Positions 55,217 through 63,002 of a stretch of 64,000 nucleotides of DNA are shown here, piece after piece. The notes under the pieces were generated by a model. It made no database searches and had not been told where the DNA came from. It saw only the letters and a list, made by a program, of their open reading frames with translations. The translations under genes and the position numbers were made by a program. The DNA is taken from positions 149,821 through 213,820 of the forward strand of contig NZ_LR027855.1 of NCBI RefSeq assembly GCF_900607235.1, given 5' to 3'. Position 1 is the first letter of the stretch; each line of letters begins with the position of its first letter. The stretch is from Olivibacter jilunii (GTDB taxonomy: Bacteria > Bacteroidota > Bacteroidia > Sphingobacteriales > Sphingobacteriaceae).

Positions 55217-55813
55217 CTATACCTGATCTAAAGGTTTTCTTTTCCGGTCCTTAATTTGCTTAAAATGAGAGGGTGTTAACCCGGTGATTTTTTTAAACTG
55301 CGTAGATAGATGTTGAACGCTACTATAACCCAGTTTATACGCGATCTCACTCAATGTCAGCTCATTATATACAAGTAGTTCTTTAGCTCTTTCAATACGT
55401 TGCAAAATAATAAATTGCTCAATCGTAAGCCCTTCTGTCTGCGAGAATAAAGTACTAAGATAGTTATAGTCAATCGTTAGCTGTTGCTGGAGAAAAACGG
55501 AGAAGTTCACTTTCATGTTAATTTCGTCAACGTTGTGTATCCGTTCGATCAACAAGGTCTTCACCTTTTCAACCAATTTTTGCCTCTTATCATCAAGAAG
55601 TTCGAATCCAACCGCAGTCAATTCCTCTCTCAACATGTGATACCGTTCTTTAGGTAGGGCCTCCTTTAATGCGATCTCGCCTAAACTTACCGATACGGGT
55701 TGAATGCCCATCGTGTCCAAAATTTGTCTGACCACCATCACACAGCGATTGCATACCATATTTTTAACGAATAATCTCATGTCAGCGATATCCATTGTTA
55801 TTAGCGATTTCAC
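55217..55813 (-). CDS. AraC-type regulator with N-terminal HMA-like domain
   Basis: 198 residues (starts at 55795 and 55780 are also possible). N-terminal part (about 12-78) is a heavy-metal-associated-like ferredoxin fold with a CxxC-type site (MVCNRC), as in copper chaperones; C-terminal part (about 95-198) is an AraC double helix-turn-helix (LTIEQFIILQRIERAKELL; LTLSEIAYKLGYSSVQHLSTQFKKITGLTPSHF). The fusion suggests direct metal sensing. It lies just downstream of the biotin operon on the same strand (69 bases), but that may be chance. Confidence 0.85.
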   Translation of the reverse strand: MKSLITMDIADMRLFVKNMVCNRCVMVVRQILDTMGIQPVSVSLGEIALKEALPKERYHMLREELTAVGFELLDDKRQKLVEKVKTLLIERIHNVDEINMKVNFSVFLQQQLTIDYNYLSTLFSQTEGLTIEQFIILQRIERAKELLVYNELTLSEIAYKLGYSSVQHLSTQFKKITGLTPSHFKQIKDRKRKPLDQV

Positions 55814-55882: not shown

Positions 55883-57163
55883 CTACCCTACCTCTTCCAG
55901 CGCCAAGCGAATCGTAGCATAAATATAATCAAGTTCTTCATCCTTTATGCAATATGGGGGTAATAGATAAATCACATTGCCCAATGGTCGCATTAGGATC
56001 CCTTTTTGCAAAAAGTAATCGTAGAGTTGATCTCTTAAGGGGTTAAAATAGTTCGTTACATCGTCCGAACGCCATTCAATAGCCAGAATTGTTCCTAAAA
56101 AGCGGGTTGTCTGTACGTTGCGATGCCCTCTAATGGATCGCGCAAAATCGATATGGCGTGTTGTTATCCTTTGTATACAAAGCCGGGTTTCCTCTTTAAG
56201 CAGCAGGTCTAAACTTGCCAATGCAGCAACACATGCTAGTGGGTTCGCTGTATAAGAATGACCATGGAACAACGTTTTCGTTCGATCATTTGATAAAAAA
56301 GCGTGATAAATCGGTTCCGTGCACGATGTGACACCTAAGGGAAGTGTACCGCCGGTTAAGCCTTTCGATAAACACATGATATCCGGTTGTGTGTGCAAAT
56401 AATCAGCAGCAAAGAGCTTTCCGGTTCGTCCGAAGCCCGTAAATACTTCATCTTGTATAAGTAAAATACCGAGTTCTTTGCAGAAACACAACAGCTCACT
56501 CAAGTGACTAGCTTCATACATTTTCATGCCTGCCGATCCTTGCACAAGCGGTTCATAAATAAAACAAGCAACCTCCTGCCGAATAGCATACAATTTTTCT
56601 TTAATTGTTTTTAGACTGAGTTCGTTTGGTACTTCCAGGAAGATAACTTCAAAGAGATAATTTTCAAAGGGTTTTGTCCAATTACTTCTTGCACTCACCG
56701 ACATGGTGCCAAAGGTATCACCGTGGTAAGCGTCTTTCAGCGCAATAATTTTCTTTTTACATTGTCCAGTGTTATGCCAATACTGCAAGCACATTTTTAA
56801 TGCTATTTCAACCGCAGTAGACCCATTATCGGAATAAAATATCTTACGCTGGTTGTCCGGTAAAATGCTCAATAAGCGCTCGGCTAGCGCGATAGCAGGC
56901 GAATGCGTAAAACCGGCGAATATCACATGCTCCAACTTGTGCAATTGCTTATAAAGTTGCTCCGCAATATAAGGATGCGCATGTCCATGTAAATTAACCC
57001 ACCAAGAAGATATCGCATCGATATAGGAACGCCCATCTTCTGCATAAAGGTAGACGCCCTTTCCTTCAACAATAGCGATGGGAGGCCCATCTATCGGCAG
57101 CTGTGAATAGGGATGCCAAACAGCCGCTACATCACGCTGTGAGAGTGTTGTCTCATGATTCAT
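55883..57163 (-). CDS. bioA: adenosylmethionine-8-amino-7-oxononanoate aminotransferase
   Basis: 426 residues. Converts KAPA to DAPA with SAM as amino donor; PLP enzyme. Seen: AVWHPYSQLP (BioA-specific), DAISSWWVNLHGHAHPYI, YSDNGSTAVEIALKM, LKDAYHGDTFGTMSVSAR, LIQDEVFTGFGRTGKLFA and LSKGLTGG with the PLP Lys. Last gene of the biotin operon; 3 bases after bioB. Complete. Confidence 0.97.
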   Translation of the reverse strand: MNHETTLSQRDVAAVWHPYSQLPIDGPPIAIVEGKGVYLYAEDGRSYIDAISSWWVNLHGHAHPYIAEQLYKQLHKLEHVIFAGFTHSPAIALAERLLSILPDNQRKIFYSDNGSTAVEIALKMCLQYWHNTGQCKKKIIALKDAYHGDTFGTMSVSARSNWTKPFENYLFEVIFLEVPNELSLKTIKEKLYAIRQEVACFIYEPLVQGSAGMKMYEASHLSELLCFCKELGILLIQDEVFTGFGRTGKLFAADYLHTQPDIMCLSKGLTGGTLPLGVTSCTEPIYHAFLSNDRTKTLFHGHSYTANPLACVAALASLDLLLKEETRLCIQRITTRHIDFARSIRGHRNVQTTRFLGTILAIEWRSDDVTNYFNPLRDQLYDYFLQKGILMRPLGNVIYLLPPYCIKDEELDYIYATIRLALEEVG

Positions 57164-57166
57164 AAG

Positions 57167-58162
57167 TTAACCTAAATCTAATTTTTGATTTTCTTTTAAG
57201 GAGAATGGATGAAGCCCCAGCAACTCAAACATTGCTCTATCCTCCGTCAGCTTCGGGTTCGGTGTTACTAACAATTCCTCGCTTTCACTTGTAAAAATAG
57301 AATTAGCACCTGCCAGAAAGCACCAGGCTTGTTCGATTGTAGACATTTCGGATCGACCTGCACTGAGCCGTACCATCGCTTTTGGCATTAAAATACGAGC
57401 TGTTCCAATCATTCGTACCATTTCCCATATCTGCACCTTTGGCAAATCTGCCAATGGCGTACCACTGACGCGAGCTAAGGCATTAATCGGCACCGATTCT
57501 GGATGGCTCGGCATAGTGGCCAGTTTGTGAAGCATGGCGATCCGATCCTCTGCTGATTCTCCTAGACCAATAATTCCACCACAACAGACCGATATGCCAG
57601 CTCGCCTGACATACTCCAAGGTATTCAATCGGTCGTTAAAATTACGCGTGCTTATGATCTCCTGATAATAATTTTCTGAAGAATCGAGGTTGTGATTATA
57701 AGCCGACAAGCCAGCTTCCCGCAAGCGTTTTGCTTGATCAGCCGTTAGCATCCCCAAGGTACAGCAGACTTCCAGCCCTAAGGCGTACACACCTTTAACC
57801 ATTTCCAATACGTTATCAAAATCACGGTTATTCCGTACTTCACGCCATGCCGCCGCCATACAGAAGCGTGTTGATCCAGACTCTTTTGCCCTTTTAGCAC
57901 AAGCTATCACTTCGCCTACGTCCATTAATGGTTTAACCTTAATATTGGTGTGGTACCTGGCGGCCTGTCCGCAATATGCACAATCTTCCGGGCACCCTCC
58001 TGTTTTTATTGATAGTAAGGTGCAAACCTGAACTGTAGACGGATCATGCCACTGGCGATGAATGTGTGCCGCCTCGTAAGTTAAAGTCAACAAACTCATA
58101 TGGTAGATACGGCGTACTTCTTCGATCGACCAATCGTTGCGAATTTTATTTTGCTGATTCAT
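57167..58162 (-). CDS. bioB: biotin synthase
   Basis: 331 residues. Radical SAM enzyme that inserts sulphur into dethiobiotin. Radical SAM cluster C57, C61, C64 (GGCPEDCAYCGQ), and the [2Fe-2S] ligands in the usual later blocks (ARYHTN; FCMAAAWR; CCTLGMLTADQAKRLREAGLSAYNHNLDSS). C-terminal SAGRSEMS...CFLAGANSIF. Overlaps bioD by 17 bases and is followed by bioA after 3 bases. Confidence 0.98.
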   Translation of the reverse strand: MNQQNKIRNDWSIEEVRRIYHMSLLTLTYEAAHIHRQWHDPSTVQVCTLLSIKTGGCPEDCAYCGQAARYHTNIKVKPLMDVGEVIACAKRAKESGSTRFCMAAAWREVRNNRDFDNVLEMVKGVYALGLEVCCTLGMLTADQAKRLREAGLSAYNHNLDSSENYYQEIISTRNFNDRLNTLEYVRRAGISVCCGGIIGLGESAEDRIAMLHKLATMPSHPESVPINALARVSGTPLADLPKVQIWEMVRMIGTARILMPKAMVRLSAGRSEMSTIEQAWCFLAGANSIFTSESEELLVTPNPKLTEDRAMFELLGLHPFSLKENQKLDLG

Positions 58163-58796
58163 TTTTTTTTATTTTACTATTTATCGATAAGTGTAAGCTA
58201 CTGTAACGGATCGCTTCGTTATTTATTGAACTCAATTCAGGAACATGGATGATAGGAATCTCCTCGGAAACGTGACTCTCTATCGCCTCTTGGGAAGCTT
58301 TATTCATATTGCCATTAAATACCAGCGCCCCTATACGAACTTCTTTTCTACGTAAAACTTCATAGGAAAGAAGACTGTGGTTAATGCAGCCCAAGTAGTC
58401 TCTTATCACCAATATGGCTGTTGCACCAAGTTGCTTTATTAAATCAATCATAAAGAAATCACCTGATAAAGGCACGAGCAAGCCACCTGCCCCTTCAATA
58501 ATCAACCGATTGGCAGTAAAAGGTGGTTGAAAATCATCTGGGTGAATAGCAATGTTCTCCGCAGCAGCCGCCTCATGTGGCGAAGCCGCCAATTGCAGCC
58601 GAAATCGCTCTTGATGAATGTGTGTCGATTCCGCATTTACCAAATGCTTGACTCGTTCACTGTCTGTATTGTCTAAGTCTCCGCACTGAATTGGCTTCCA
58701 ATAGTCGGCTTTCCAATAAGATGCCAATACCGCTGAGACAATCGTTTTTCCCACCCCGGTGCCGATTCCCGTGATGAAGATATTTTTTTCATTCAT
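58146..58796 (-). CDS. bioD: dethiobiotin synthetase
   Basis: 216 residues from ATG 58796, which gives the usual MNEKNIFITGIGTGVGKT start; an earlier ATG at 58826 is open. P-loop GTGVGKT, then YWKPIQCGD, IIEGAGGLLVPLS and the carboxylating loop. Closes the ureido ring of DAPA with CO2 and ATP. Third in the operon; overlaps bioB by 17 bases and is 52 bases after bioF. Confidence 0.96.
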   Translation of the reverse strand: MNEKNIFITGIGTGVGKTIVSAVLASYWKADYWKPIQCGDLDNTDSERVKHLVNAESTHIHQERFRLQLAASPHEAAAAENIAIHPDDFQPPFTANRLIIEGAGGLLVPLSGDFFMIDLIKQLGATAILVIRDYLGCINHSLLSYEVLRRKEVRIGALVFNGNMNKASQEAIESHVSEEIPIIHVPELSSINNEAIRYSSLHLSINSKIKKNESAK

Positions 58797-58848
58797 TTTC
58801 TTAAAATAGGTTATTGTGTATACCATACTTTAACCGCATTAAATGCCG

Positions 58849-59970
58849 TTATTCATTTTTAATTAGCTGTTTCAGACGGAAGACAAGGCGTATGATATCC
58901 TCATCTTTATTATAACTGTGGAGGCAAACCCGTAAGCATTCGCGGCCTGGTTTCACGGTAGGGCTTTTTATTGCAGAAACATCGAAACCATGATGCTGCA
59001 GTATTTCGCTCCATTGCTCTACTTCCTGGTTACTTTTACCATAGATAATTTGTATTGGACTGAGAAAAGGGCCTCGCACTTCCCTTCCCAATGCTTGGTT
59101 AAAAAGCAAGCATTTTGCTTGAAGTAAAGCTTGATCGCATGCTGCCCTCGCCAAACGCTGATAAGCTAGTCGCACGGCTAATAATTGCCAATAGGATGCG
59201 GCCGTACTATAAATGAAGGGACGGCAGTAATTAATAAGATAGTCCTGCAATATCTTGCTTCCCAAAATAGCAGCTCCCTGTACTCCCAGTGCTTTCCCGA
59301 ACGTAACGACGCGTGCAAAAACACGTTTTTCCAATCCCAGCAATTGTATCAATCCGCCTCCAAATACACCAATTGCATGCGCTTCGTCAACGATCAGCAA
59401 CGCATTGTACCGATCACATACGTCAATTAAATCGCTAAGAGGTGCAAAGTCGCCGTTCATGGAGTAAAGGCTCTCCACTAACACAAAACACTTTCCACTG
59501 CGATATTTTTCCAACTTCCTGCGTAGATCGCTTATCTGGTTGTGCTTGAAATGAAGGGTGGTTGCCAAACTGAGACGACAACCATCAACAGCAGATGCAT
59601 GTACACATTCATCTCTAACAATGAAGTCGCCTCGTTTAGCGAGCGCTGATATAAGTCCTAGATTAGCCAAGTAGCCTGTGTTTAAGAGAAGAGCCGATTC
59701 TGCTTGATGAAACCGGGCAATCTGGCCCTCTACCTCTTCTGCCAGCAAACTATTACCGGAGATTAGGCGTGAGCCAGTGGATCCTATAATAAATGATCCA
59801 TCGCATTGTAAGCAGTCGACAAACGCTCTATTAGCCAGCGATCTCGACCAGCCAAAATAATCATTGGAGCAAAAGTCAATCAAACCATTGGGAACCCTTA
59901 GTTGCCGGAGACAACCTTCGTCCTTCCTTTTTGATAAAGCTTTAAGCATGTACAGATCCATCGCTTTCAT
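58849..59970 (-). CDS. bioF: 8-amino-7-oxononanoate synthase
   Basis: 373 residues from ATG 59970; ATG 59961 or 59949 also fit. PLP enzyme that joins pimeloyl thioester and alanine to KAPA. Seen: LIDFCSNDYFGWSRS, GSTGSRLISGNS, SLYSMNGDFAPLSDLIDVCDRYNALLIVDEAHAIGVFG, and the PLP Lys in FGKALGVQGAAIL. A bit short at the N terminus, but complete. The start overlaps the upstream diiron gene by up to 29 bases. Confidence 0.96.
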   Translation of the reverse strand: MKAMDLYMLKALSKRKDEGCLRQLRVPNGLIDFCSNDYFGWSRSLANRAFVDCLQCDGSFIIGSTGSRLISGNSLLAEEVEGQIARFHQAESALLLNTGYLANLGLISALAKRGDFIVRDECVHASAVDGCRLSLATTLHFKHNQISDLRRKLEKYRSGKCFVLVESLYSMNGDFAPLSDLIDVCDRYNALLIVDEAHAIGVFGGGLIQLLGLEKRVFARVVTFGKALGVQGAAILGSKILQDYLINYCRPFIYSTAASYWQLLAVRLAYQRLARAACDQALLQAKCLLFNQALGREVRGPFLSPIQIIYGKSNQEVEQWSEILQHHGFDVSAIKSPTVKPGRECLRVCLHSYNKDEDIIRLVFRLKQLIKNE

Positions 59971-60565
59971 ACAAATCTTGCTTTATCCGGTTGATCCAAT
60001 CTGAAAAAATACGCCGCTCCTTTATGATGAGGTAAGATGCATGTTGTCGCCATTCTCCATCGTATTCGGTAAGCTGGTTGACCATTTCTTCTAAATGCCC
60101 CTTTTCTTCCTGTATAATCGCCTTGACATTAACTTTGCTTCCATGACGCAGGAGCACTTCCTGATAGAGTGGGTACAACTCATCCGCCCGTAACTCAATG
60201 ATGTAAGTCACCATTAGGTAGGCATAAAAGCGTAAACGATCAGGAGAAACGGCTAAGACGTCCTTAAAGTATCGATATACGTCTAAATTTAGCCTATCAA
60301 GATATTGTTTGCTCACTATGGGCGCCAACAGTTCATGTGTCTGATAAGTATTGCAATAAGTCCCTAACTTACGACTCTGCCTTTTTAGATGATAAGCGTG
60401 CCTATGCTCTTCGGCTGCATGTTTGAGTAGGGTTAAATTGAGTAACGCGTTGTCCTTAATTGCTGATATTTTGCAGGCGCCACTGTTTTCCATTAGCGAT
60501 AACGTGTTTAGAAATTTGGCATGAGCGCAATCGTCTGCTACGATATCGTATAATAAATCTTTCAT
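59942..60565 (-). CDS. ferritin-like diiron protein heading the biotin operon
   Basis: 207 residues, all-helical, not a known biotin enzyme. A full set of ferritin-type iron ligands can be read by eye: E26 (helix A), E53xxH56 in AEEHRHAY (helix B), E124 in YIIELRADE (helix C, or E129), and E154xxH157 in EEKGHLEEM (helix D). Two ExxH motifs 101 residues apart and A-B, C-D spacings of 27 and 30 resemble those of diiron oxygenases such as aldehyde deformylating oxygenase. No signal peptide. It is first in the operon and overlaps bioF, so it is produced with the biotin enzymes. Candidate for making or releasing the pimeloyl precursor, since no bioC, bioH, bioG or bioI is in view. Other options: a hydroxylase (MiaE-like), or iron-sulphur support for BioB. 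Function is inferred. Confidence 0.75.
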   Translation of the reverse strand: MKDLLYDIVADDCAHAKFLNTLSLMENSGACKISAIKDNALLNLTLLKHAAEEHRHAYHLKRQSRKLGTYCNTYQTHELLAPIVSKQYLDRLNLDVYRYFKDVLAVSPDRLRFYAYLMVTYIIELRADELYPLYQEVLLRHGSKVNVKAIIQEEKGHLEEMVNQLTEYDGEWRQHASYLIIKERRIFSDWINRIKQDLYESDGSVHA

Positions 60566-60582
60566 TGCTATTGAATTTTAGC

Positions 60583-60590
60583 CAAAAGTA
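60583..60590 (-). promoter_or_regulatory. biotin operon promoter -7 element
   Basis: TACTTTTG on the minus strand, exact TAnnTTTG match, 17 bases before the ATG at 60565. ATG stands 18 bases upstream in place of TTG. One of the half-sites (60599-60605) lies in the spacer. Confidence 0.55.
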
Positions 60591-60598
60591 GTATCTTG

Positions 60599-60643
60599 CC
60601 GGACGATACATATAGTCCAGTTTTAACTTCATGAGTAGTCCGG
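60599..60643. promoter_or_regulatory. candidate MocR operator half-sites
   Basis: Three related 7-mers in the divergent gap: CCGGACG at 60599-60605 (inverted), AGTCCAG at 60614-60620 and AGTCCGG at 60637-60643 (direct, 23 bases apart). The last overlaps codons 3-5 of the regulator gene; the first lies in the spacer of the biotin promoter. MocR-type regulators often bind such mixed direct and inverted sites. Confidence 0.45.
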
Positions 60644-62118
60644 TTAAAATTCCTTTTAAAAGTCTTATTGTGTTGAGCAAGCAAGGCAATACACCCATAT
60701 ACCTACAGATTGCACGGCAACTTATCAATGCTATTCAACGCGGCGTTTTAATTACCGACACACAACTACCTGGAAGTCGGGCGCTTAGCGAAGATCTTGG
60801 TGTGCATAGAAAAACGGTTATTGCAGCTTATGACGAACTGTATACGCAAGGTTGGACGCAGAGCATTCCGAATAAAGGCACCTTTATTCGAAACCGTCTT
60901 AACAACGACTTGCCTGATCCTATAAAATATGACAGTGATTATTTAGCCAGCTATCCAAAAAAAACCGGCTTCTCGTTTAAACAGCGCATCCTGTTGGATC
61001 GACCGATCGCATTATCGACTTGCCACTTAGCCTTCAGCGATGGTCTACCTGATACGCGAATAGCTCCTTTAGATCGTTTGGCGAAAATTTACGGAGGTGT
61101 ACTAAGAAGAAAAACGAGTGTAAGACATTTAGGGTATTCTCATTTGGAAGGCAACGAATATTATCGCGATAGTTTGGCATACTATCTGAACAATTCACGC
61201 GGCCTTCCCATAAAAAAAGAGAATATATTGACGACACGCGGTATACACATGGGCATTTATTTGGCATCCAGCGTCCTCATTAATACCGGTGAGCGGGTTG
61301 TTGTAGGAAACCTCAGCTATTATATCGCCAATATGATTTTTCAACAGGCTGGTGCAAAACTACATGCTGTGCCGGTAGACAAGGAGGGTATCTCTGTAGA
61401 AGCCATCCGAGCGCTTTGTGAAAAAGAAACTGTACGGATGGTATATATAACACCACACCATCATTATCCGACTACGGTTACGTTAAGTGCTGAACGACGA
61501 ATCGAATTGCTCAATTTGGCGAGTAAATATGGCTTTATCATTCTTGAAGACGATTACGATTACGATTTTCATTATACGAGCAGTCCGGTATTACCCCTCG
61601 CCAGTGCTGACAGTCAAGGCATGGTTGTATATATCGGCTCGTTTTGCAAAACGCTCGCACCGGGTTTGCGAACCGGTTACATCATTGCCCCGCAAAACCT
61701 GATAGAAGAAATCGGACGTTTCAGACGAATCGTTGACAGACAAAGCGATATGTTAATGGAACAAGCACTGGGCGAGTTATTAACGGAAGGAGAAATTCAT
61801 AGACACCTAAAAAAAGCGATTAAAGTTTACGAACAGCGTTGTACCCATCTGTCTACCTTATTAAAGAATGAACTGAGTGATTACACCTCCTTCAAATCTC
61901 CACCGGGAGGATTAGCATTATGGTCTTTGTGGAAAAAAGAATTGAATCTGATGCGAATTAGCAAAAACTGTGCAAAATACGGCCTTCATTTGCCGCAAAC
62001 CTTACTTTACCAAAATGAATTGACAACGGCTATGCGATTAGGCTTTGGAGACCTCAACACGAATGAGCTCACAGAAGCAGTTCACATACTAAAGCAGTCG
62101 GTGACGGAATCGCTATGA
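60631..62118 (+). CDS. MocR-type regulator (GntR winged helix plus aminotransferase domain)
   Basis: 495 residues. N-terminal GntR winged helix (about 20-95: PIYLQIARQLINAIQRGVL; QLPGSRALSEDLGVHRKTVIAAYDEL), linker, then a class I aminotransferase-like domain from about 130 with the PLP Lys in GSFCKTLAPGLRTGYI and ILEDDYDYDF. Related to PdxR and GabR, which sense PLP or its adducts. Divergent from the biotin operon by 65 bases, so its likely target is that operon; BioF and BioA are themselves PLP enzymes with amine or ketone substrates that could be ligands. Ends 6 bases into the convergent hydrolase gene. Confidence 0.9.
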   Translation: MSSPVKIPFKSLIVLSKQGNTPIYLQIARQLINAIQRGVLITDTQLPGSRALSEDLGVHRKTVIAAYDELYTQGWTQSIPNKGTFIRNRLNNDLPDPIKYDSDYLASYPKKTGFSFKQRILLDRPIALSTCHLAFSDGLPDTRIAPLDRLAKIYGGVLRRKTSVRHLGYSHLEGNEYYRDSLAYYLNNSRGLPIKKENILTTRGIHMGIYLASSVLINTGERVVVGNLSYYIANMIFQQAGAKLHAVPVDKEGISVEAIRALCEKETVRMVYITPHHHYPTTVTLSAERRIELLNLASKYGFIILEDDYDYDFHYTSSPVLPLASADSQGMVVYIGSFCKTLAPGLRTGYIIAPQNLIEEIGRFRRIVDRQSDMLMEQALGELLTEGEIHRHLKKAIKVYEQRCTHLSTLLKNELSDYTSFKSPPGGLALWSLWKKELNLMRISKNCAKYGLHLPQTLLYQNELTTAMRLGFGDLNTNELTEAVHILKQSVTESL

Positions 62119-62979
62119 TAACAAAAGTCTGTTCATTTGTTCAAGCAGTTCGTTAATTAGGGCTTCGCTCTTAACCATATGATGGTGACCGGTCCCATCA
62201 TAGGCTTTATGTTTGATATCGCCATGTTTTTGCAGAAATCCCTGCATAAAGCTAAATGGTGAGATTTCGTCAAGACGATCGTAAAAAAGCAAGTGGTTTT
62301 CACAGGCGTAATTGTAAAGGTTATTCAGGTTGAAATAACTAACCTCAATATCAAACGACTTTTTAAAATCGCGGAAAAATTGTCGCTGCACATCAATTGG
62401 CACATTAGCTGTTGTCATTTGGGTGATAAAGTAGCTTTCGAGATCAATTAACGGAGCTAGGCTGACCAACAATGTTGGTTTTACGACGAAATCTTTGTAA
62501 GCGATGATATTGGCCATTGCACCTAGAGAGTGACCAATTAAAACGCTTGGGATACCAAAATGCCTGGTTATTTTTCGAATACTTTCAACATATAATAAGA
62601 GATTAGTCAACCTTCCTTGCGAAGAACCATTACCAGGAGCATCAAATGCGATTACTGTAAAGCGTGAACTGGACAAAAGACGTTCAATTAGATAATAGAA
62701 ATCAGCTGCTTTAGAAGCCCAACCATGCGTTAGTAGTACAAGTTGATCACCATTTCCCCAAGCAAATGCATTAACCAAAAGCTCCTGATGATCAAAATAG
62801 GAATCGAAAACCGAAAACTCGATTTGTCTGGAACGTGCCAATAGCTCCTGCTGACTTGAACGTAAGGGAAATTTCGGAGAATAAAACAAGTAATCAAACA
62901 TATATTGACAAACTGCATCAAATACTTGCTCTTTCACCAATGCTTGTATTTCCGAGGTCATCTGTTTAACCTTCCTCAT
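62113..62979 (-). CDS. alpha/beta hydrolase
   Basis: 288 residues from ATG 62979. The frame is open from ATG 62997, but that ATG overlaps an exact promoter -7 element (62995-63002), so the inner start is more likely. Core: LLTHGWASKAADFY (oxyanion region), FDAPGNGSS, nucleophile elbow GHSLGAM, GTGHHHMV with the catalytic His. Cytoplasmic, no signal peptide. Could be a BioH-like esterase in view of the nearby biotin genes, but it has no feature specific for that and may be an unrelated hydrolase. Confidence 0.84.
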   Translation of the reverse strand: MRKVKQMTSEIQALVKEQVFDAVCQYMFDYLFYSPKFPLRSSQQELLARSRQIEFSVFDSYFDHQELLVNAFAWGNGDQLVLLTHGWASKAADFYYLIERLLSSSRFTVIAFDAPGNGSSQGRLTNLLLYVESIRKITRHFGIPSVLIGHSLGAMANIIAYKDFVVKPTLLVSLAPLIDLESYFITQMTTANVPIDVQRQFFRDFKKSFDIEVSYFNLNNLYNYACENHLLFYDRLDEISPFSFMQGFLQKHGDIKHKAYDGTGHHHMVKSEALINELLEQMNRLLLS

Positions 62980-62994
62980 AGTGTGTTTATTAAA

Positions 62995-63002
62995 CAAAGA
63001 TA
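62995..63002 (-). promoter_or_regulatory. promoter -7 element of the alpha/beta hydrolase gene
   Basis: TATCTTTG on the minus strand, exact match, covering the ATG at 62997 and 15 bases before ATG 62979. No TTG at the -33 distance. Confidence 0.4.

Follow-up and report, generated by a model that had tools for sequence, protein, structure and literature searches.

A BioE orthologue heads the biotin operon of Olivibacter jilunii and is predicted to supply its pimeloyl thioester

BioE is a ferritin-like diiron oxygenase described from Elizabethkingia and Chlamydia, which breaks long-chain acyl-ACP or acyl-CoA at the C7-C8 bond, giving a pimeloyl thioester (PMC12915131). The same report describes BioE orthologues that contain iron, require O2 and a reductant, yield pimeloyl-ACP, and rescue E. 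coli bioC and bioH mutants. It terms the route newly identified, citing PNAS 2025 122:e2501226122 for the first description, applies a search rule of >40 % identity and 85 % coverage to the Elizabethkingia meningoseptica protein (EmBioE), and names Sphingobacteriaceae and Chitinophagaceae among the bioE-bearing families. In Elizabethkingia, according to this source, the bioE and bioB promoters are repressed by BioL, a MocR-type protein with residues R50 and K340, for which 8-amino-7-oxononanoate, made by BioF, is the reported signal. The BioF of E. meningoseptica (EmBioF) reportedly accepts pimeloyl-CoA alone in vivo. The orthologue from Chlamydia psittaci (CpBioE) is reported to be a monomer that acts on acyl-ACP only (PMC12915131).

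Here, we compare these systems with a biotin operon located within a 64,000-nucleotide stretch of the Olivibacter jilunii genome (hereafter, the window). Five genes lie on the minus strand in the order bioE (59942-60565), bioF (58849-59970), bioD (58146-58826), bioB (57167-58162) and bioA (55883-57163). The ORF coordinates bear out the gene order proposed in the first-pass annotation of this DNA, with its overlaps of 29 bases between bioE and bioF and 17 bases between bioD and bioB, and its gap of 3 bases between bioB and bioA; a further 22 bases separate bioF from bioD. The assignments of bioD (dethiobiotin synthase; TIGR00347, 108.5 bits, cut-off 83.3), bioB (biotin synthase; TIGR00433, 379.6 bits, cut-off 225) and bioA (adenosylmethionine-8-amino-7-oxononanoate transaminase; TIGR00508, 540.9 bits, cut-off 405) all pass curated cut-offs. 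For bioF (8-amino-7-oxononanoate synthase), the best model, TIGR00858, scores 303.8 bits, below the curated cut-off of 426.45 that none of 201 same-family genomes passed, and the name therefore rests on the best model together with the operon. The first gene encodes a protein of 207 aa, which we identify as a ferritin-like diiron oxygenase from its ligands, its predicted fold and the published EmBioE ligands. A MocR-type gene encoding 495 aa (60631-62118, plus strand), absent from the first-pass annotation, diverges from bioE across a 65 bp spacer (60566-60630).

Two further genes flank this cluster. Just downstream of bioA, the minus strand encodes a regulator of the AraC type (55217-55813), which has a weak match to a heavy-metal domain, and a homologue of it (70-80 %) stands beside bio genes in all three same-genus loci (L045, L077 and L078). 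At the other end, a minus-strand gene for an alpha/beta hydrolase (62113-62997) overlaps the end of the MocR gene; L045 and L078 also have homologues of this hydrolase next to their MocR gene. We rejected this hydrolase as a BioH candidate, as it scored 32.5 bits against the BioH equivalog cut-off of 206.95.

The bioE-bioF-bioD order matches the arrangement described for Elizabethkingia, as does the divergent MocR gene, the product of which has R50 and K340. Unlike in that system, where PMC12915131 treats bioEFD and bioBA as having separate promoters, bioB and bioA belong to the window's own cluster. Chlamydia differs in another respect, having no BioL, whereas the window has a MocR gene.

The window protein, as read in translation, carries the residues E26, E53, H56, E124, E154 and H157, at nearly the same positions as the published ligands of EmBioE (E26, E53, H56, E125, E155 and H158), and corresponding to the same ligand set in CpBioE, numbered there E41, E68, H71, E140, E170 and H173 (PMC12915131). 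All six are invariant in an alignment of 83 non-identical BioE sequences, comprising the window protein and 82 others that are 35-55 % identical to it; the repeat proteins from 15 of 97 BioE-hit loci and a below-threshold remnant in genome G089 stand outside these 83 rows. Because the ligands are invariant in 83/83 sequences, the six-ligand set is not a matter of chance, and the complete ferritin-type diiron set recognized in the first-pass annotation stands, in the homologues as well as in the window protein itself. The published pocket contacts of EmBioE, L22, M25, K32, Y117, I124 and L131 (PMC12915131), have identical counterparts in six of six cases (L22, M25, K32, Y116, I123 and L130), when the window numbering is offset by -1 from that of EmBioE beyond residue 100. 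Judged by its sequence, the window protein is a BioE orthologue, and the function is already in print for other orthologues; by analogy with these, it would itself cleave the C7-C8 bond.

An AlphaFold2 model built from a 29-row alignment (pLDDT 94.0, pTM 0.90) predicts a ferritin-like helix bundle, with the ligands lying within helices 12-34, 44-65, 108-140 and 148-168, in line with the diiron site that had been suggested from the sequence. A Foldseek search of the PDB with this model gave no match at E <= 0.001. Among the 50 matches listed, the highest probability belonged to cyanobacterial aldehyde deformylating oxygenase (ADO; 5ux1_A, probability 0.99, TM 0.59, E 0.57), whilst the lowest E-values belonged to BAR domains, which we set aside at a TM of about 0.26. 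ADO takes fatty aldehydes as substrate and releases formate (PMC12915131). It may resemble the window protein in its diiron helix bundle, but the two share 15 % identity, and sequence searches of the PDB up to E 10 recovered no ADO, whether they used the single sequence or the family profile.

Matches by sequence were sparse overall. The single window sequence found nothing in the PDB at E <= 10 and nothing in Pfam at E <= 1, no NCBIfam model matched it significantly, and the BioE family profile found one bacterioferritin chain in the PDB (E 0.055). The only recurring significant hit was a rubrerythrin match in 8 of 29 relatives (best 1.6e-5). As there is no Pfam or NCBIfam match and the rubrerythrin match is weak, bioE genes are easily missed in annotation. 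The ferritin-like fold, the rubrerythrin and bacterioferritin matches, and the operon shared with bioB would also suit a protein that serves BioB, by repair or protection of its Fe-S clusters or by supply of iron, and makes no pimeloyl thioester; repair of BioB had been raised as the alternative in the first-pass annotation.

The distribution of bioE argues against a role tied to BioB. Across 201 same-family genomes, in which bioB and bioA were scored over their cut-offs, a bioE match at E <= 0.001 was found in 116, nearly full length in 115 and as a fragment in one (G089). All three genes occurred together in 114 genomes, bioE with bioA alone in one (G142, contamination 7 %), and bioE with neither in one, the G089 remnant; the genomes with no bioE comprised 21 with both bioA and bioB, one with bioA only, 10 with bioB only and 53 with neither. 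Accordingly, bioE tracks bioA (both present in 115, the bioE remnant alone in one, bioA alone in 22, neither in 63; Fisher p 6e-32, in a test that ignores kinship). It does not track bioB, being missing from 10/10 genomes that have bioB without bioA, two of which (the incomplete G148 and G156) do carry bioF, and from 31 of the 145 bioB-bearing genomes in all. Two bioE-bearing genomes, G034 (93 % complete) and G152 (82 %), gave no bioF match at E <= 1e-50, a threshold that also misses the bioF of G016, which is seen in locus L111. The expected co-occurrence with the late genes is thus seen, with bioA present in 115 of 116 bioE-bearing genomes, the exception being a remnant, and with bioC and bioG in a bioE-less operon (G177, below). 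This pattern supports placing the BioE step upstream of BioF.

The layouts of the loci point the same way. In the 62 wide loci available for the 115 intact family cases, besides the window, bioE lies beside bioA and not bioB in 35. The full E-F-D-B-A order occurs in 20, and in 15 of these the MocR gene is divergent; at least one other bio gene accompanies bioE in 55, and none is found within the stretch in the remaining 7. Two genomes record losses: G015, from the same genus, retains bioL and bioB at the locus, from which bioE, bioF, bioD and bioA have gone, and in G089 (L076:7624-7950) residues 1-52 of bioE run directly into residues 268-323 of bioB, the remnant of a deletion. With bioE absent from so many bioB-bearing genomes, with bioB kept where bioE is lost, with bioE so often adjoining bioA, and with pimeloyl-ACP reported as the product of BioE orthologues (PMC12915131), we regard repair of BioB as extremely unlikely, and pimeloyl supply as the preferred reading.

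Beyond the family, a phylum-wide draw of 395 genomes gave 14 with BioE at E <= 1e-10, of which 7 were outside the family. In all seven, the six ligands are retained and the genes run bioL (divergent), bioE, bioF, bioD, and their proteins are 46-51 % identical to the window's. A different arrangement was found at loci on six named contigs (three from Cyclobacteriaceae, two from Chlamydiia and one from Verrucomicrobia), where bioE directly follows bioA in 6/6, the order being B-F-D-A-E in four and cut by the contig end in two. A natural exchange was seen in G177 (L073:5651-13178), in which bioC and bioG have taken the place of bioE in an operon that reads bioB-A-F-G-C-D. Its BioC (233 bits) is over the cut-off, its BioG scores 130 bits, and a profile search found no bioE in this genome, whilst bioE is present in 15 of the 16 bioA-bearing genomes of its genus. 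From this swap, it appears that the bioE and bioC-bioG modules replace each other, as would be expected if both supply a pimeloyl thioester. The G177 locus also has a distant MocR gene, of the 35-37 % class, divergent from bioB.

No functional bioC set came to light elsewhere in the window genome, in agreement with the earlier proposal that the diiron protein takes the place of these genes. The best BioC candidate there, with 12 of 22 candidates scored, reached 80.6 bits, where the cut-off is 184.95, and was rejected, as weak matches occur in 201/201 genomes. The cut-off is a strict one, passed in 1 of 14 controls with at most 12 candidates scored per genome, and in 1 of the 201 genomes, namely G177. 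BioW was found neither in the window genome nor in any of the 201 same-family genomes, in a search that gave a signal in 2 of 14 controls. The genome search for BioG matched nothing, but detected 0 of 14 controls; a protein scan with the same model recognizes the BioG of G177. Two P450 genes are present in the window genome.

These P450 genes, the strictness of the BioC cut-off, and the existence of relatives that have the late genes and no bioE, and must use another source or scavenge, leave some room for BioE being redundant in this organism, with a P450 of the BioI type, BioZ or a divergent BioC supplying most of the pimeloyl thioester. We consider this quite unlikely, given a best BioC match that is below the cut-off and of a kind that occurs in every genome, the lack of BioW, the location of the P450 genes on contigs other than the operon's, and the position of bioE at the head of the operon. 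BioI of Bacillus subtilis is a haem enzyme unrelated to the non-haem diiron protein of the window.

The relatives in question number 19 of the 201, having bioF, bioA and bioB, and no BioE by sequence or profile, BioC over the cut-off or BioW (G004, G007, G020, G021, G032, G046, G055, G076, G084, G085, G097, G102, G108, G113, G115, G117, G128, G143 and G147); 15 of them are at least 97 % complete. BioE is, therefore, not the sole route in the family. No divergent BioE was found by profile among 26 genomes, the G089 remnant aside, and five genomes, including G117 and G128 of the 19, gave weak matches to the BioE profile (E 0.005 to 0.2) that we judged to be chance. Among the examined loci, no gene neighbouring bioA was restricted to bioE-less genomes; NUDIX-, cation-efflux- and aminotransferase-like neighbours, as judged from their sequences, were discarded as a replacement on the bioA side, as they also occur in the bioE-bearing loci L160-L162. 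Likewise, none of the bioF neighbours was specific to bioE-less genomes in a comparison of 14 bioE-less and 6 bioE-bearing loci. The BioE-less relatives may rely on an early gene that is divergent or of another kind, or may scavenge. A divergent BioC, a P450, BioZ or scavenging would be the ordinary answers, and we hold it unlikely that this bacterial family has an additional, undescribed source of pimeloyl units.

The window protein may differ from EmBioE in its preference between thioesters. The EmBioE surface proposed for CoA binding comprises F24, R31, K32, K46, R87, Q88 and H91 (PMC12915131), for which the window protein has L24, C31, K32, L46, K86, Q87 and D90, where we infer the pairing of window residues 86-90 with EmBioE residues 87-91. 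It, thus, differs from EmBioE in having C31 and D90 in place of R31 and H91. The cysteine is unique to the window protein, position 31 being R in 75, K in 7 and C in 1 of the 83 sequences, and D90 resembles a residue of CpBioE, the acyl-ACP-specific enzyme, in which D106 likewise stands where EmBioE has H91. Because C31 is unique and D90 resembles the CpBioE residue, it is plausible that the window BioE makes weaker use of acyl-CoA. Across the alignment, H was found at BioE position 90 in 10 of 16 MocR-linked rows and in 13 of 67 others, in a comparison that ignores kinship. This enrichment would possibly fit the idea, put forward in PMC12915131, that a CoA-active BioE needs BioL.

The divergent MocR protein has a GntR-type HTH and an aminotransferase domain (GntR and Aminotran_1_2), with R50 and K340 at the published EmBioL positions, and is probably BioL. 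PMC12915131 describes both residues as common to the MocR class, and PdxR is the closest NCBIfam model, narrowly missing its cut-off (315.9 bits, cut-off 320); the name BioL, thus, rests mainly on gene position. The same model and the same general residues would fit a PdxR that regulates vitamin B6 genes and stands beside bioE by chance, with the operon outside BioL control. The divergent arrangement with bioE, however, recurs in 15 of 20 full-operon family loci and in 7/7 loci outside the family, the bioL-bioE spacer is conserved, and the MocR gene stays beside bioB, divergent from it, where bioE has been lost (L045, L052, L066 and L075). A chance neighbour of the PdxR type is, on these grounds, very unlikely, and we retain the assignment as probable BioL.

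The spacer at 60566-60630 is conserved in relatives and is the putative BioL operator; for comparison, the gel-shift probes in PMC12915131 were palindromic sequences of about 50 bp. Once 2 of 18 rows are dropped as identical copies, 16 non-identical rows are left. With start codons placed by alignment, the spacer spans 64-70 nt in 14 of them, and reaches 110 and 123 nt in the other two, which come from relatives in the same genus. Identity is at least 90 % in 23 of 50 intergenic columns across these 16 rows, with two blocks standing out, AAAACTGG and TCCGGCAAGRTAnTA. In the window, the conserved block TCCGGCAAGATACTA, followed by CTTTTG, lies on the minus strand at 60589-60603, its only exact match there; two further window sites match the second block at two mismatches, where 0.8 would be expected by chance. 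The -7 element of Bacteroidota is TAnnTTTG, which TACTTTTG at 60583-60590 fits. A sigma-70 and terminator scan returned site counts about equal to those in shuffled sequence. The blocks recur with a few changes before bioB in L045, L052, L066 and L075, and the second block was not seen in L067 and L073, the MocR genes of which are 35-37 % identical.

Our data are consistent with a model, to which we would assign a probability of roughly 0.9, where the gene is bioE, its product replaces BioC and BioH through C7-C8 cleavage of an acyl thioester, and the operon is repressed by the MocR protein, which is probably BioL. In this model, BioE would bind a long-chain acyl thioester, namely acyl-ACP and perhaps also acyl-CoA, and its diiron centre would activate O2 using electrons from a donor; no ferredoxin gene is present in the operon. 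The C7-C8 bond would be broken and a pimeloyl thioester released, which BioF, encoded by the overlapping next gene, would condense with alanine. BioE would in this way stand in for BioC and BioH, with the divergent regulator repressing the bio operon. The pimeloyl-supply role is supported by the ligands, the six pocket contacts, the operon context and the divergent MocR gene, all as in published BioE. The proposal made from sequence alone, that a diiron oxygenase cuts an acyl chain to give the C7 unit in place of BioC-BioH, much as the P450 BioI does, has, therefore, gained support, and matches the biochemistry reported for BioE orthologues (PMC12915131).

Overall, our survey indicates that the BioE route is the usual entry into biotin synthesis in this family, with bioE present in 115 of 137 bioA-bearing genomes. 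It also adds natural cases of replacement and loss, in which bioC and bioG stand for bioE, or bioE has been lost together with bioF, bioD and bioA whilst bioB is kept. Lastly, the relatives in which the late pathway is present but no early gene was detected represent a concrete place in which to seek another route.
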